Below are positions 1,297 to 12,500 of a stretch of DNA of 33,517 bases, piece after piece. The position numbers and the translations under genes were made by a program. This stretch comes from a virus, in the IMG/VR virus record IMGVR_UViG_3300032284_001592, positions 1 through 33,517 of that record; one strand, given 5' to 3'. The first letter of the stretch is position 1, and the number at the start of each line of letters is the position of its first letter. The notes beneath the pieces are model-generated. The model was given only the letters and a program-made list of their open reading frames with translations, was not told the DNA's origin and did not search any database.

Positions 1297-2313
1297 ATGA
1301 CTAATTTATTCAAGAAGGCCGCGGTCTTCACAGATATACATTTTGGACTAAAATCTAATAGCACACTACACAACGAAGACTGTTTAGCCTTTGTCAAATG
1401 GGCAGTAGACAAGGCTGTTGCTGAAGGATGTGAAACTTGCCTGTTCTTGGGCGACTGGCACAACAACCGTGCGGCCATCAATATTCTCACACTAAACTAC
1501 AGCCTCAAGGCCCTGGAGTACATGAATGACAATTTTGACAATGTTTATTTTATTCCTGGTAATCACGATCTTTATTATCGGGACAAAAGAGATGTTCAAA
1601 GCGTTGAGTGGGCGCGACATCTACCTAACATCCATATTGTCAATGATTGGTTTGACAGTGGTAACGTTGTTATTGCTCCTTGGCTTGTAGGCAACGATCA
1701 CAAGAAGCTGGTTAAGAAAAAAGGCAAGTACTGTTTTGGGCACTTTGAACTGCCTGGTTACTTTATGAATGCCATGGTTCAGATGCCAGACATTGGCGAA
1801 GCCAGGGGCGAAGATCTAGCAGGCTTTGAGCATGTGTTTACTGGACACTTCCATAAGCGACAGACAAACAACAACATCACTTATATTGGCAACTGCTTTC
1901 CTCACAACTATGCAGACGACGGCGACGAAGATCGCGGCATGATGATACTGGAGTGGGACAAAGAGCCAGAATTCCACGCATGGCCCGATCAGCCCACATA
2001 TCGTGTGCTAGGACTTAGTTCTATAGTCACAACTCCTGAGCTGATCTTTAAGCCAAAAATGCATGCTCGTATCAATATTGACATTGATCTCTCTTATGAA
2101 GAAGCAAACTTTATCAAAGAAACCTTTGTTGAAACTTACAAATTACGTGAACTCAGCTTGATTCCACGCAAGGAAGTGACTGTTAACGAAACAGCCACAG
2201 GTGGCGAAATTGTATTTGAAAGCATTGACACAATCGTGCAAAATCAAATAAATGCAATCGACAGCGAGCACTACGACCGCAACCTATTACTAGACATCTA
2301 TAGGAACTGTTAA
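1297..2313 (+). CDS. 47: Recombination endonuclease subunit gp47 (SbcD/Mre11-like phosphoesterase)
   Basis: A 338-aa protein, essentially the length of T4 gp47 (339 aa). The calcineurin-type phosphoesterase motifs appear in order: FTDIHFG with D13 and H15, GDWHNN with D53 and H55, GNHD at 88-91, then GHFE and FTGHFHKR further on. These residues hold two metal ions in the Mre11/SbcD family. With gp46 the protein resects DNA ends for recombination-dependent replication. There is no clear Shine-Dalgarno sequence at the ATG. The stop codon overlaps the gp46 start by one base, so the two are translationally coupled. Confidence 0.93.
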   Translation: MTNLFKKAAVFTDIHFGLKSNSTLHNEDCLAFVKWAVDKAVAEGCETCLFLGDWHNNRAAINILTLNYSLKALEYMNDNFDNVYFIPGNHDLYYRDKRDVQSVEWARHLPNIHIVNDWFDSGNVVIAPWLVGNDHKKLVKKKGKYCFGHFELPGYFMNAMVQMPDIGEARGEDLAGFEHVFTGHFHKRQTNNNITYIGNCFPHNYADDGDEDRGMMILEWDKEPEFHAWPDQPTYRVLGLSSIVTTPELIFKPKMHARINIDIDLSYEEANFIKETFVETYKLRELSLIPRKEVTVNETATGGEIVFESIDTIVQNQINAIDSEHYDRNLLLDIYRNC

Positions 2314-4085
2314 TGTTTTTAATCAAAGATCTGACTGTAAAGAATTTCATGAGCGTGGGCAATGCTACCCAAGCGGTTAAGTTTAACCGCAATGACCTCA
2401 CGCTGGTTCTTGGGCAAAATCTAGATCTTGGGGGTGACGACACAGGCGCACGTAACGGCACAGGCAAGACCACAATCATCAATGCGCTGAGTTATGCGCT
2501 GTATGGTAATGCGTTAACCAATATCCGCAAGGAAAACTTGATTAACAAAACCAATGCCAAGGGCATGATGACCACAATTGAGTTTGAAAAAGACGGCATC
2601 GCCTACAAGATTGAACGTGGGCGTAAGCCCAATGTGCTCAAGTTCTTTGTAAACAACCAAGAGCAGGAAGCAACAGACGAAGCACAAGGCGACAGCAGAG
2701 AAACACAAGCAGAAATAGAACGTCTGTTGGGCATGAGCCACGAGATGTTCAAGCACGTGGTGGCCCTCAATACCTATACAGAGCCTTTCCTCAGTTTAAA
2801 AGCGGCTGATCAACGTACCATGATTGAACAGTTGTTGGGTATCACTCAGCTGAGTGAAAAAGCAGAATCTCTCAAAGAACAAACAAAGCTGGCCAAAGAA
2901 GCAATCACAGCAGAAGAATATCGCATCAAGGCTGTGCAGGATGCTAATGTTCGCATGACTGAACAGATTGAAAATCTTAAACGTCGGCAGAACATGTGGA
3001 TCAAAAAGAAAAACGAAGATCTAGATTCGCTGGCCACTGCCTACGGAGAGCTGGACAAGATTGATATTGAAGCAGAGCTTAATGCACATCACCTGCTGGC
3101 AGAGTACAAGAAAAAGAAACTGGAAATAGATCAACTTAAAAACTACATTGCACAAAACCAGCGTGACGAAGCACGTGAACAACGAGCAATGGAAAAACTC
3201 AAGGCTGAAATTGCCAGCTTAGAAGATCACAAGTGCCATGCATGTGGACAGGATCTACATGATGCTAATCACGAAGACCTGTTGGAGTCAAAACGCAAAG
3301 AGCTACAGGAAACTGCACTCAATGCACTAGCGGCCAATACACAGTATATTGAAAACACAGACAAGTTAAAAGAACTAGGCGAACTGGGCACACGGCCCAC
3401 AACATTCTACGACAAGGAAGCAGATGCATTTGAGCATCGTGCGAGCCTGGGCAATATACTGAGCCAGCTTACTGCTAAACAGGATGAAGCAGATCCGTAT
3501 GCTGAACAGATCGTAGAAATGGAATCTAAGGCAGTTGAAGAAATTGATTACACAGAAATGAATCGCTTGACTCAACTGCGTGATCACCAGGAGTTTTTAT
3601 ACAAACTGCTGACCAACAAGGACTCGTTTGTGCGCAAGCGGGTCATGGATCAGAACTTGAACTATCTGAATCAGCGTCTCAGCTACTACCTAGACGCCAT
3701 TGGCTTGCCGCACACAGTTATCTTCCAAAACGATCTGACTGTTATGATCACTGAACTAGGACGTGACCTAGACTTTGATAATCTATCACGTGGCGAAAGA
3801 AATCGTTTGATACTATCACTGAGCTGGAGTTTCCGCGATGTATGGGAATCACTGTACCAACCAATCAACCTGATGTTTATCGACGAAGTTGTAGACTCTG
3901 GTATGGATTCCAGTGGTGTTGAAGCCGCACTTGCTATTCTTAAGAAAATGGCACGTGACCGTAACAAGAGCGTATGGCTAGTAAGTCACAAAGACGAGCT
4001 GGTTAGCCGCGTGAACAATGTGCTAACTGTAACAAAAGAGAACGGGTTTACCAGTTATGGCACGGATTTAGAGGCAGTAAACTGA
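2313..4085 (+). CDS. 46: Recombination endonuclease subunit gp46 (SbcC/Rad50-like ATPase)
   Basis: A 590-aa SMC-like ATPase; T4 gp46 is 560 aa. The Walker A motif is GARNGTGKTT at 45-54. Long coiled-coil arms flank a zinc-hook CHACGQ with C308 and C311. The ABC signature NLSRGERNR starts at 490, Walker B LMFIDE at 520-525, and the H-loop LVSHKDE follows. All key motifs are intact. It forms the ATPase/tether part of the gp46/47 complex that processes ends for strand invasion. The start ATG overlaps the gp47 stop (TAATG), fitting a 1:1 operon pair. Confidence 0.94.
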   Translation: MFLIKDLTVKNFMSVGNATQAVKFNRNDLTLVLGQNLDLGGDDTGARNGTGKTTIINALSYALYGNALTNIRKENLINKTNAKGMMTTIEFEKDGIAYKIERGRKPNVLKFFVNNQEQEATDEAQGDSRETQAEIERLLGMSHEMFKHVVALNTYTEPFLSLKAADQRTMIEQLLGITQLSEKAESLKEQTKLAKEAITAEEYRIKAVQDANVRMTEQIENLKRRQNMWIKKKNEDLDSLATAYGELDKIDIEAELNAHHLLAEYKKKKLEIDQLKNYIAQNQRDEAREQRAMEKLKAEIASLEDHKCHACGQDLHDANHEDLLESKRKELQETALNALAANTQYIENTDKLKELGELGTRPTTFYDKEADAFEHRASLGNILSQLTAKQDEADPYAEQIVEMESKAVEEIDYTEMNRLTQLRDHQEFLYKLLTNKDSFVRKRVMDQNLNYLNQRLSYYLDAIGLPHTVIFQNDLTVMITELGRDLDFDNLSRGERNRLILSLSWSFRDVWESLYQPINLMFIDEVVDSGMDSSGVEAALAILKKMARDRNKSVWLVSHKDELVSRVNNVLTVTKENGFTSYGTDLEAVN

Positions 4086-4126: not shown

Positions 4127-4642
4127 ATGACAAGTCCACAAAAAGCAAAAGGTAACAGTTGGGAACGCAAGGTAGCGGATCATCTTACAGCATTGTACGG
4201 TGAGAAGTTTCTACGAGTACCCGGCTCTGGCGCTTATATTGGGGGCATGAATGTGCATCGCAAAGAGACTCTGCACGAAGCACAGGTCCGTAGTTTCAAA
4301 GGGGATATTGTTCCCGGCGAAAGTTTTCCGCGCCTGAATGCTGAATGCAAAAGTTATAAAGACTTTCCATTTCATCAACTCTTTCAAGGCTCATGCAAGA
4401 TCTTAGAAGAATGGATTTCTCAGTGTATGGATGTCGCTGACGAGGGTGACTTCAATATCATTTTTATGAAATTCAATCGCAAAGGTATGTACATAGCAAT
4501 CCAGGCTCAGCCCAATACATCTTCCTTATTTTTTACAAGACACTTTAATTATGGCTCCGCTCATCATGGTCATTGGTTCATTATGGACTACGATCTATTT
4601 TGGGAACTAAACGCAGACAAGGTCAGAGACCTCTGCAAATAA
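4127..4642 (+). CDS. PD-(D/E)XK nuclease, Holliday-junction-resolvase-like
   Basis: A 171-aa protein with the layout of small Hjc-like resolvases: GNSWERKVADHL with E13, LRVPGSGA (30-36), FKGDI with D60, and AECK with E73 and K75. E13, D60, E73 and K75 fit the catalytic E...D...ExK set of the PD-(D/E)XK fold. In that family the protein cuts branched DNA. It lies 41 nt downstream of gp46, so it may resolve recombination or replication branches before packaging, a task done in T4 by the unrelated endonuclease VII (gp49). No clear Shine-Dalgarno or separate promoter is visible. The fold assignment is fairly firm, but the precise substrate is inferred. Confidence 0.65.
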   Translation: MTSPQKAKGNSWERKVADHLTALYGEKFLRVPGSGAYIGGMNVHRKETLHEAQVRSFKGDIVPGESFPRLNAECKSYKDFPFHQLFQGSCKILEEWISQCMDVADEGDFNIIFMKFNRKGMYIAIQAQPNTSSLFFTRHFNYGSAHHGHWFIMDYDLFWELNADKVRDLCK

Positions 4643-5085
4643 ACAGTTTATAGCTCGCACAGGCCAATTTCGTGTGCCCTAAACCTGGATCTTGGATCAC
4701 AGGGATGGAAAACCTCTTGCTGTAAAGAGTACTCAATCACTATCCTTCACAGGACGACGATCGCGAAATGCCGTGGTTTGATTGTTTGAACAGAATTTAA
4801 AGGCAAAAAGAGTAGAGAAATTCTACAGGTCGTACAGCATGTTAGCGTATGTGTGTGCGATTGCCGTTGTTATAAAGACGCAACTCGAGGTACCGGACAA
4901 CCGCCTCTGTAATTGTTGTAACGCTATGTGGCTATCAGAACTCGGATGAAGCTAACCTTTGCCCTGTGCGGGCAAAGTGTGACCATAGAATCTGGATGAA
5001 ACTTAATTCGCTGAAGCGTATTAATTTTAATGCAGATAATAATATCATTGAGCGACAGCGAAGTGATAGACTAGCGTAGCTAGTC
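4643..5085. ncRNA. Gene-poor 440-nt region with many potential hairpins; candidate structured RNA
   Basis: No frame of 60 codons or more occurs here on either strand. On the + strand several helices can be drawn: GTTTA/TAAAC enclosing GCACA/TGTGC (4646-4684); CTCTT/AAGAG (about 4714-4729); GTAGA/TCTAC (about 4812-4826); GAGG/CCTC (about 4887-4907); CTATGtGG/CCATAG (4923-4988) enclosing the perfect CTTTGCCC/GGGCAAAG hairpin (about 4957-4977); TTCGCTG/CAGCGAA (5007-5013 with 5056-5062); and AGACTAGC/GCTAGTCT (5068-5086). Two imperfect copies of a roughly 28-nt element containing GGATGAARCT are also present. Transcript ends and strand are not known. It does not match tmRNA, RNase P, a tRNA or intron cores that I know. 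Confidence 0.35.
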
Positions 5086-5086
5086 T
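5068..5086. terminator. 8-bp hairpin at the convergent junction
   Basis: AGACTAGC-GTA-GCTAGTCT is a perfect 8-bp stem with a 3-nt loop, touching the stop codon of the leftward small ORF. No good T-run follows on either strand, so intrinsic termination is plausible but unproven. It could also be the last helix of the structured region. Confidence 0.4.
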
Positions 5087-5262
5087 TAAAAGAATGGTAA
5101 CCCTGAATCCTTAGTAGATTTCATGTTGTCTTTGATAATCTCATTGATAATATCTTTTTCAACTTGACCCAACATCATGGCATCCTCATAGGATAGCCCG
5201 CCACGCATCCACCAACTAAAACGCAATGCTTCTTCACGGATGCTTCTTGCCTCCTTCTCCAT
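5086..5262 (-). CDS. Small gp51-like baseplate hub assembly protein (start uncertain)
   Basis: A leftward frame ends at TAA 5088-5086. From the first ATG (5262-5260) it gives 58 aa. Coding-looking sequence extends further upstream: LNDEQIEKLIEN precedes that Met, with CTG at 5298-5296 where an initiator would be expected. The body has FSWWMRGGLSYEDAMMLGQ and ends STKDSGLPFF, reminiscent of the small protein found next to gp26 in marine T4-like phages (gp51, hub assembly); this resemblance is from memory. There is no convincing ribosome site at either start. The frame is -1 relative to gp26 and stays open back to within the gp26 C-terminus. Confidence 0.55.
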   Translation of the reverse strand: MEKEARSIREEALRFSWWMRGGLSYEDAMMLGQVEKDIINEIIKDNMKSTKDSGLPFF

Positions 5263-5300: not shown

Positions 5301-6188
5301 TTAGGAGGCGCGAACGAAAAAATTTGCGTAGTCGAAAGTGATCTCCATCTCATACTCAGCACCACAGTGAGTGCATGCTGTGTGCTGTGGAGGAACTGTG
5401 CCTTCACGTGCTATGTCCTGATATGCGGTCTGGATCACTTCGATTGTACGTGCATCAATGTTTTTGTAAAAGTCCAAGATATAGTTCTTTTCACGTACAA
5501 CTGCGGCTTCTGTACCATCTGGATTCATGATAGTGATGAAGTCGGTGCTGTCTGCTAGTACCATGCTGTTCAGGTCCACGATACGTCCCATTTGGGTAAC
5601 AGCTTCGTTTACCTTGTTTTCATCATTGTCTGGCATCTGATCAATGCTCTGAGCTAGTCGCTGTATTTCAAAGTTGGCTTTGTTTGTTTGATTCATGCCA
5701 AAATAGATCAAGGGTTTGAACTTGATCTTGATCGTGTCTAATTCAAATTCCTTGTCAAAGTCTGGTGCTTTGATCCTTTCCAGCATGGTGCGCAGGTCCA
5801 GCGAGTATGTGTTGGCTTCTTCGCATTTTGGACAAGTGCCTTCAAAATCCATGTTATGTCCATAGCTGGCAATGCGCATGGCAATCAGCGTAGCATCCAC
5901 ATCTGGGCTGGGCATTTTCCATGCATCTTTGATTTCTGGAATACAGCTCTGAATAACATCAACCATGCCTTGACCGTTGATCAGCGCATCTGGTGTGCGC
6001 AACAAAATCTCGTCCTTGCTGGTCATTGGATAAACTGCCAGTTCGCCTGTTGCAGACTGTGTTAGTGAATTTCCAGTCCACCACTTGCCTCTGCTGGGCA
6101 GAGTAAAGTAGATTGCAGGCTGTCTAAAGTACTTGCTTAACGGATTGTTCTGTTGAGCTTGGTTTGGTAACCCTTGAAAAGTGGCCAT
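5301..6188 (-). CDS. 26: Baseplate hub subunit gp26-like
   Basis: A 295-aa protein resembling the T4-like baseplate protein gp26 family. Recognisable stretches are LPSRGKWW, YPMTSKDEILLRTPDAL, SCIPEIKD and IAMRIASYGHNM. It contains two CxxC pairs, C119/C122 (CPKC) and C272/C275 (CTHC), which probably bind one zinc. T4 gp26 is 208 aa, so this is the longer environmental type. It should sit in the central hub at the tail tip. A perfect TATAAATA on the minus strand lies 33 nt upstream. The gene diverges from the tape-measure-like gene and is followed by the small gp51-like frame. Confidence 0.8.
   Translation of the reverse strand: MATFQGLPNQAQQNNPLSKYFRQPAIYFTLPSRGKWWTGNSLTQSATGELAVYPMTSKDEILLRTPDALINGQGMVDVIQSCIPEIKDAWKMPSPDVDATLIAMRIASYGHNMDFEGTCPKCEEANTYSLDLRTMLERIKAPDFDKEFELDTIKIKFKPLIYFGMNQTNKANFEIQRLAQSIDQMPDNDENKVNEAVTQMGRIVDLNSMVLADSTDFITIMNPDGTEAAVVREKNYILDFYKNIDARTIEVIQTAYQDIAREGTVPPQHTACTHCGAEYEMEITFDYANFFVRAS
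5316..5322 (-). other. Candidate -1 slippery heptamer at the end of gp26
   Basis: The leftward mRNA reads T TTT TTC in the gp26 frame (Phe290-Phe291), a canonical X XXY YYZ slippery sequence. It lies four codons before the gp26 stop. A -1 slip enters the downstream small ORF with no stop, giving a gp26-small-ORF fusion. A clear downstream pseudoknot was not identified. Confidence 0.35.
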
Positions 6189-6220: not shown

Positions 6221-6228
6221 TATTTATA
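6221..6228 (-). promoter_or_regulatory. Late promoter for gp26
   Basis: The minus strand reads TATAAATA, an exact T4 late octamer, 33 nt before the gp26 ATG. It lies downstream of, and points across, the oppositely oriented octamer at 6200-6207. Confidence 0.75.
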
Positions 6229-12233: not shown

Positions 12234-12241
12234 TATAAATA
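12234..12241 (+). promoter_or_regulatory. Late promoter for the prohead-core operon
   Basis: An exact TATAAATA lies only 8 nt before the ATG at 12249, so the expected transcript would be almost leaderless for that gene. It probably also serves the following core, protease and scaffold genes. Confidence 0.7.
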
Positions 12242-12248
12242 ATACATT

Positions 12249-12500
12249 ATGAATGTATTTGAATTATTTGACCCGTCTCCAGATCACACAGGATACAGCA
12301 CAGAAAAAGATGACAATTCTGTGCTGAAACTCAGTGATCTCCGCAAAACCAGACTCAGCTTAGATCAGATCAATCGCATGAGAGTCATGAATGATGTGCG
12401 TAATCTCGAGCATGAAAAGAAGCTGACCAAGGTATCAAAACAGTATAAAGCCGCCGGTGGCGGTGATGCAATGGGCGGTGGGGCCCCTGCATCAGTTTAA
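12249..12500 (+). CDS. Conserved small protein between portal and prohead core
   Basis: An 83-aa basic, helical protein (DDNSVLKLSDLRKTRLSL, then INRMRVMNDVRNLEHEKKL) with a Gly/Ala tail. A gene of this size and style sits directly after the portal gene in many environmental T4-like phages, where it is usually annotated as hypothetical. T4 has small core genes 67 and 68 in this place, so a role in prohead assembly is likely by position only. No Shine-Dalgarno sequence is visible, and the late octamer is almost adjacent. Confidence 0.75.
   Translation: MNVFELFDPSPDHTGYSTEKDDNSVLKLSDLRKTRLSLDQINRMRVMNDVRNLEHEKKLTKVSKQYKAAGGGDAMGGGAPASV

Follow-up and report, generated by a model that had tools for sequence, protein, structure and literature searches.

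A pseudoknotted RNA that opens with the Polynucleobacter-1 domain lies at a convergent gene junction in phages

Polynucleobacter-1 was named in a 2010 survey, in which the motif was regarded as 'probably' an RNA and 'probably' cis-regulatory (PMC2864571). Two large RNAs of phages and prophages, GOLLD and ROOL, are of unknown function and form multimeric cages, and within GOLLD the 3′ region is conserved and the 5′ region variable (PMC12286853). In phage ICP1 and in PLE satellites the most abundant transcripts are RNAs devoid of open reading frames (PMC7567579). In this study, a structured RNA was analysed in a window of 33,517 nt, i.e. the whole stretch of DNA under analysis (positions 1 to 33,517 of IMG/VR virus record IMGVR_UViG_3300032284_001592), and compared with these systems.

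The element fills the gap between the stop codon of a nuclease gene and that of a convergent small ORF, and this gap is almost certainly a real structured RNA gene (Table 1). A search of the whole window against all Rfam families gave a sole match, RF01718 (Polynucleobacter-1), which covers the first 136 nt with 112 bits and an E-value of 2.8e-25, the gathering score (cut-off) of the family being 37 bits. Nothing else credible was present between 4400 and 5400 down to E = 10, and the remaining ~300 nt of the element lie outside every Rfam family. Neither RNase P, self-splicing introns nor the GOLLD and ROOL covariance models gave an Rfam match, and ARAGORN found no tRNA or tmRNA gene in the window, which is part of a genome. 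An earlier note, made from the letters of this DNA, had proposed a new structured phage RNA between convergent genes, dissimilar to tmRNA, tRNA, RNase P and intron cores, and had suggested a search with Rfam covariance models. The structured RNA is borne out by covariation and by the same junction in relatives, and the listed RNAs are indeed missing; the novelty, in turn, does not extend to the 5′ third, which is the RF01718 domain that the reader of the letters had overlooked. That third is what was already known, and the rest is undescribed by Rfam. The ~300 nt located 3′ of the RF01718 domain belong to the same RNA as that domain. The RNA is not a new kind: it strongly extends a known family and gives it a new interpretation, and the element is probably the full-length form of Polynucleobacter-1, a stand-alone noncoding RNA of ~440 nt in large T4-like phages.

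Table 1. Coordinates of the RNA element, its structural parts and the neighbouring genes in the window.
Feature	Position	Strand	Evidence or remark
gp46-like recombination nuclease subunit	2313-4085	+	Pfam AAA_23, 3.8e-8
PDDEXK/RusA-like nuclease, directly 5′ of the RNA	4127-4642	+	PF24608, 1.1e-25; phrog_244, 2.2e-17
Full-length structured RNA element	4643-5086	+	57-sequence alignment A1, covariation, shared position in relatives
5′ domain, Rfam RF01718 Polynucleobacter-1	4652-4787	+	model positions 1-141 (all)
Pseudoknot PK0	4652-4654 with loop 4663-4665	+	94% of cells paired; two pairs changed on both sides
Hairpin P1	4657-4661/4673-4677	+	99.6% paired; double changes in all 5 pairs
Stem P4	4734-4739/4779-4784	+	encloses hairpin 4759-4764/4773-4778
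Hairpin P5	4812-4816/4822-4826	+	double changes in five pairs
Long hairpin P6	4828-4840/4849-4862	+	12 pairs, double changes in all
Pseudoknot PK2	P6 loop 4843-4848 with 4921-4926	+	97.4% paired; double changes in all 6 pairs
Pseudoknot PK1	4866-4870 with loop ACAAC 4897-4901	+	99.3% paired
Core hairpin P7/P8 with GAGGTACCGGACAACCGCCTC	4880-4919	+	signature common to two viral classes
Twin heptamer copy 1, GGATGAA after CTC	4944-4950	+	same as copy 2 in relatives
Hairpin P9, CTTTGCCC/GGGCAAAG	4957-4964/4970-4977	+	93.7% paired
Twin heptamer copy 2, GGATGAA after TCT	4994-5000	+	same-letter covariation with copy 1
Hairpin P10, GAGCGN(n)AGCGA loop	5043-5067	+	conserved helices in A1
3′ terminal hairpin P11	5068-5086	+	8 pairs, double changes in all
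58-aa convergent ORF	5086-5262	-	conserved beside gp26; tblastn in nearly all relatives
gp26-like baseplate hub protein	5301-6188	-	PF12322, 8.3e-17; phrog_150, 4.3e-24

The fold was evaluated in alignment A1, comprising 57 non-redundant viral elements of class A (full-length and similar to that of the window) with a mean identity of 61%. Covariation was scored with a script of our own in the style of R-scape (not R-scape itself), using the G statistic with average-product correction, and the null consisted of alignments simulated along a FastTree tree, each branch receiving as many substitutions as observed. This analysis revealed 20 column pairs at E<0.05 over the tree-based null, 17 of which are canonical and spread from 4653 to 5083. 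The named structure has 102 pairs, with 94.4% of the cells in A1 paired and changes on both sides in 65 pairs. Its covariation score is 0.407, as compared with 0.161 +/- 0.004 after shuffling and 0.05-0.08 (at most 0.081) with slid partners; the latter comparison is partly circular, the structure having been derived from A1, whereas the tree null is independent of the structure. The number of G-U cells in A1 (418) greatly exceeds that of A-C cells (103), and therefore the + strand RNA is the selected strand. This strand also folds better than all 100 of its dinucleotide shuffles (z -2.94). Several helices of the single-sequence minimum-energy fold are not kept in relatives and comparative evidence was used instead; the fold is established by covariation and not by folding energy. 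The + strand RNA fold is under evolutionary constraint and includes at least three pseudoknots.

Significant covariation was found in several of the individual parts: pair 4738/4780 of P4 (E=1.3e-5), pair 4847/4922 of PK2 (E=0.045), 4881-4884/4915-4918 in the P7/P8 core (E down to 2.2e-5) and P11 (E down to 1.6e-5). Pseudoknot PK1 is nearly invariant within class A, and its pair changes together in other classes; PK0 is missing from the structure line printed by Rfam. Covariation among relatives at the same junction is what the earlier note had recommended looking for, and both the score and the 17 canonical pairs provide it. Its drawn helices fared unequally: CTTTGCCC/GGGCAAAG is conserved as P9, but CTATGtGG/CCATAG and the long-range TTCGCTG/CAGCGAA are unsupported in relatives. 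Its statement that the gap holds no credible gene was correct, as a 55-aa ORF inside the element is open in only 7 of the 57 relatives, the length difference relative to the window breaks its frame in 38 of them, and none of the 57 shares a conserved reading frame in the element.

Profile searches yielded 164 viral loci with the element, i.e. 74 of class A and 90 of class B, the latter matching mainly the 3′ half. A covariance model (R1) built from 4862-5001 of class A, with an RNAalifold structure of only 16 pairs, detects class B with E-values down to 1e-16 (including L030, L004, L007, L016, L024, L033 and L063), and RF01718 did not exceed the cut-off in those of the listed loci that were scanned. 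Since class B shares the core, and RF01718 does not match its scanned members, the 3′ core is common and the 5′ domain exchangeable. In other phages, apparently different structured RNAs occupy the same locus, one set being L042-like (L042:5510-5993, L049 and L053) and another L055-like (L055:5555-6036, L062, L066 and L070); the RNAs of L042, L055 and L066 have no Rfam match.

In nearly all relatives, the RNA has the gp46/nuclease genes on one side and the convergent gp26 region on the other; the genes further upstream in the window encode a gp55-like late sigma factor, a gp47/SbcD-like protein and the gp46-like protein. Relatives of the PDDEXK nuclease are encoded by 75 IMG/VR loci, and in most of these the nuclease gene is separated from the convergent small ORF by ~400-500 nt, including loci whose proteins are only 50-60% identical. 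The small ORF is located downstream and on the opposite strand in 129 of the 164 viral loci, and was not found in 33 within the locus DNA searched. Its 58-aa product in the window has no family match in Pfam or phrog, and weak relatives were noticed in Sinorhizobium phage Phosso and Agrobacterium phage Atu_ph07. In many relatives, inserted genes lie between the RNA and one of its neighbours (the small ORF or gp46), and the RNA ends are unchanged. Among 64 class-A loci, the gene directly upstream encodes a SegE-type GIY-YIG protein (PF19835, 2.6e-32) in 44 cases and the PDDEXK nuclease in 15. These two nucleases belong to unrelated families, so the RNA does not serve any single gene as leader or tail, and its position is conserved independently of any particular upstream gene. 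Contigs bearing RF01718 reach 345 kb and, therefore, very large phages are among the carriers. No cultured phage carrying the element was matched at the DNA level. The PDDEXK protein also occurs in cultured jumbo phages, and its cultured relatives in Phosso, SCTP-2, PA5oct and Atu_ph07 have, judged by gene order, no equivalent gap. Exact TATAAATA boxes, which resemble T4 late promoters, were observed elsewhere in the window, at 6221-6228 (- strand) and 12234-12241 (+ strand), just 5′ of the gp26-like gene and of an ORF starting at 12249, respectively.

The RNA is also present in bacteria. RF01718 exceeded the cut-off in 6 of 398 Burkholderiaceae genomes, in 3 of 399 genomes of the order and in 13 of 151 genomes (about 9%) of one Burkholderiaceae genus; all carrier genomes are 1.6-2.6 Mb in size and some have two RNA copies. 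The order of motifs is as in viruses (5′ domain, GGAG...ACCGCC, CTC-heptamer-hairpin-TCT-heptamer, GAGCG...AGCG and a final hairpin), and the viral profile aligns to several bacterial copies over positions about 40-449 with 20-37 bits; R1, the model of the viral 3′ core, fails to match them. The case for kinship over the full length comes from the 5′ domain, the motif order and these weak profile hits, and the middle parts of the bacterial and viral RNAs are probably related. Scanning bacterial genomes with a DNA pattern of the core returned for the most part chance matches in GC-rich genomes and does not count towards the evidence.

In Burkholderiaceae, the RNA is part of a recurrent cassette (loci L343-L356) that consists of a gene for a DUF6641 protein, the RNA, variable small genes, a gene for a 188-aa tyrosine recombinase (PF00589, 1.3e-24), two unknowns, a gene for a clamp-loader-like ATPase (phrog_168, 1.8e-22) and, usually, one for a 424-aa integrase-like protein. 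The RNA is a unit of its own here: some 200 nt of noncoding DNA precede it, and the genes that follow it vary. The gene content of the cassette resembles that of an integrative island, perhaps a phage satellite, and the occurrence of the RNA inside integrase-bearing islands raises a possible link with such satellites. No credible match to a defence family was found in the variable cargo. Acquisition of the island ATPase from these phages was considered and is unsupported, the best identities being about 27-30%.

These contexts argue against the published cis-regulatory label of Polynucleobacter-1. The downstream gene is convergent in most viral loci and variable in bacteria, which speaks against a leader or other cis-regulatory role, as does the replacement of the upstream nuclease by an unrelated one with the junction kept. 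A role in a 3′ UTR is possible, and the RNA would then be a cis-acting element of the nuclease operon, serving at the convergent junction as a giant terminator, a stability element or an insulator. In favour of this, the upstream stop codon and the start of the RNA are at most about 10 nt apart in the window and most relatives, the RNA finishes with a strong hairpin and separates convergent operons, and the survey of 2010 gave the family its 'probably' cis-regulatory mark (PMC2864571). However, three pseudoknots and 102 conserved pairs are far beyond a terminator, the upstream gene comes from two unrelated nuclease families, inserted genes split the RNA from either neighbour, and the bacterial RNA has noncoding DNA before it and changing genes behind it, all of which makes a 3′ UTR element an unlikely explanation. 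We consider it improbable that the RNA partners the adjacent endonuclease in a homing unit or in a nuclease module that is guided by, or associated with, RNA: an endonuclease of the PDDEXK or SegE-type GIY-YIG kind is encoded directly upstream in 59 of 64 loci, but the two are unrelated, gene order shows no such element in the cultured jumbo phages that have the PDDEXK protein, integrases take the place of these nucleases in the bacterial islands, and no variable guide region was seen.

Within the stand-alone RNA, the preferred reading, two heptamers 50 nt apart change in concert. The copies are identical to each other in 56 of the 57 class-A elements, across eight heptamer variants, and in about 60 of 75 class-B elements; identical twins made of other heptamers (e.g. 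AACAAAA, AGCGAAA and AGAGAAA) likewise occur in 11 of 14 bacterial islands. Same-letter covariation exceeds the tree null at 4950/5000 (E=3.5e-5) and at 4944/4994 (E=0.03), and no third RNA column of A1 covaries with the heptamers above this null. Given the concerted change and the lack of a third covarying column, the simplest inference is that one partner outside the RNA reads both copies; alternatively, the two copies may touch each other directly, or identity may be required at the DNA level. A role as a CsrA sponge, suggested by the GGA motifs, was dropped, as GGA is often absent from the heptamer.

The earlier note had left room for an element acting as DNA (a packaging, replication or recombination site would be of this kind), whose repeats would merely resemble RNA structure. 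The concerted heptamers are reminiscent of the identity demanded between two recombination sites, and the bacterial copies are near tyrosine recombinases; nevertheless, the excess of G-U over A-C cells and the covarying pseudoknots indicate that what is selected is a single-stranded RNA from one strand, and a DNA element is disfavoured to the point of being very unlikely. Decayed remains of a known gene, named in the same note as an outcome that would count against its proposal, or a chance fold would suit the missing Rfam match in two-thirds of the element, and are practically ruled out by covariation far above the shuffled, slid and tree-based controls and by ORF frames that are not conserved.

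For the stand-alone RNA a role in trans is proposed, to which we give even chances. The RNA would arise as the 3′ end of a transcript spanning 55, 47, 46 and the nuclease gene, or by initiation at a promoter located in the latter gene, would be trimmed to the P1-P11 unit and would act in trans as an architectural RNA, the folded core of which presents two identical heptamers as paired binding sites for one outside partner. The candidate partner could be a protein, a different RNA or a second copy of the same RNA, and changes in it would force both heptamers to change together. A role of this sort has been proposed for the GOLLD and ROOL RNAs. Upstream of the RNA, neither promoters nor T4-late-like boxes occur beyond chance; the hairpin at 5068-5086 is followed by too few T for an intrinsic terminator (there is no U-run), and a single terminator hit inside the element is at chance level. 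With no promoter beyond chance and no U-run at the 3′ hairpin, the RNA ends are guessed from conservation. A broader and rather doubtful possibility is that these RNAs constitute a new superfamily, similar in kind to GOLLD and ROOL, of large phage RNAs with an architectural role, a conserved, pseudoknotted 3′ core and swappable 5′ domains, which would also reside in integrative islands of Burkholderiaceae (possibly phage satellites) and whose partner specificity would be set by the twin heptamers evolving in concert.

The Polynucleobacter-1 RNA is three times its recorded length and seems not to be cis-regulatory; in the collections searched, most copies are viral, which places a little-studied RNA family mainly in large bacterial viruses. 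It adds to the few large and elaborate phage RNAs known, and the question of function is made testable by well over 100 viral examples, a carrier bacterial genus and twin heptamers that predict an external partner.

The same domain that defines Polynucleobacter-1 opens the RNA in both Burkholderiaceae chromosomes and large phages; the difference is that the RNA described here runs ~300 nt further, with covarying helices and pseudoknots of its own, and is widespread in viral contigs. The association of the family with Burkholderiales and fresh water is matched, as far as taxon goes, by the Burkholderiaceae genomes and viral metagenome contigs found here. GOLLD and ROOL appear to be the nearest functional analogues, and by the Rfam test the RNA is a member of neither. 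It has about half the length of GOLLD, which is often located near tRNA genes, whereas no tRNA gene is present in this window (only part of the genome). With ROOL it shares being a large phage or prophage RNA with several pseudoknots (PMC12286853), but it differs in sequence, in length (440 nt as opposed to the 659 nt of the solved ROOL) and in having no tRNA island in the window. ICP1 and PLE, likened by description only, offer a comparable case, in which a lytic phage has an abundant RNA devoid of ORFs and its satellite islands have a second one; the location is different, and the PLE transcript is homologous to leaders in antisense orientation.
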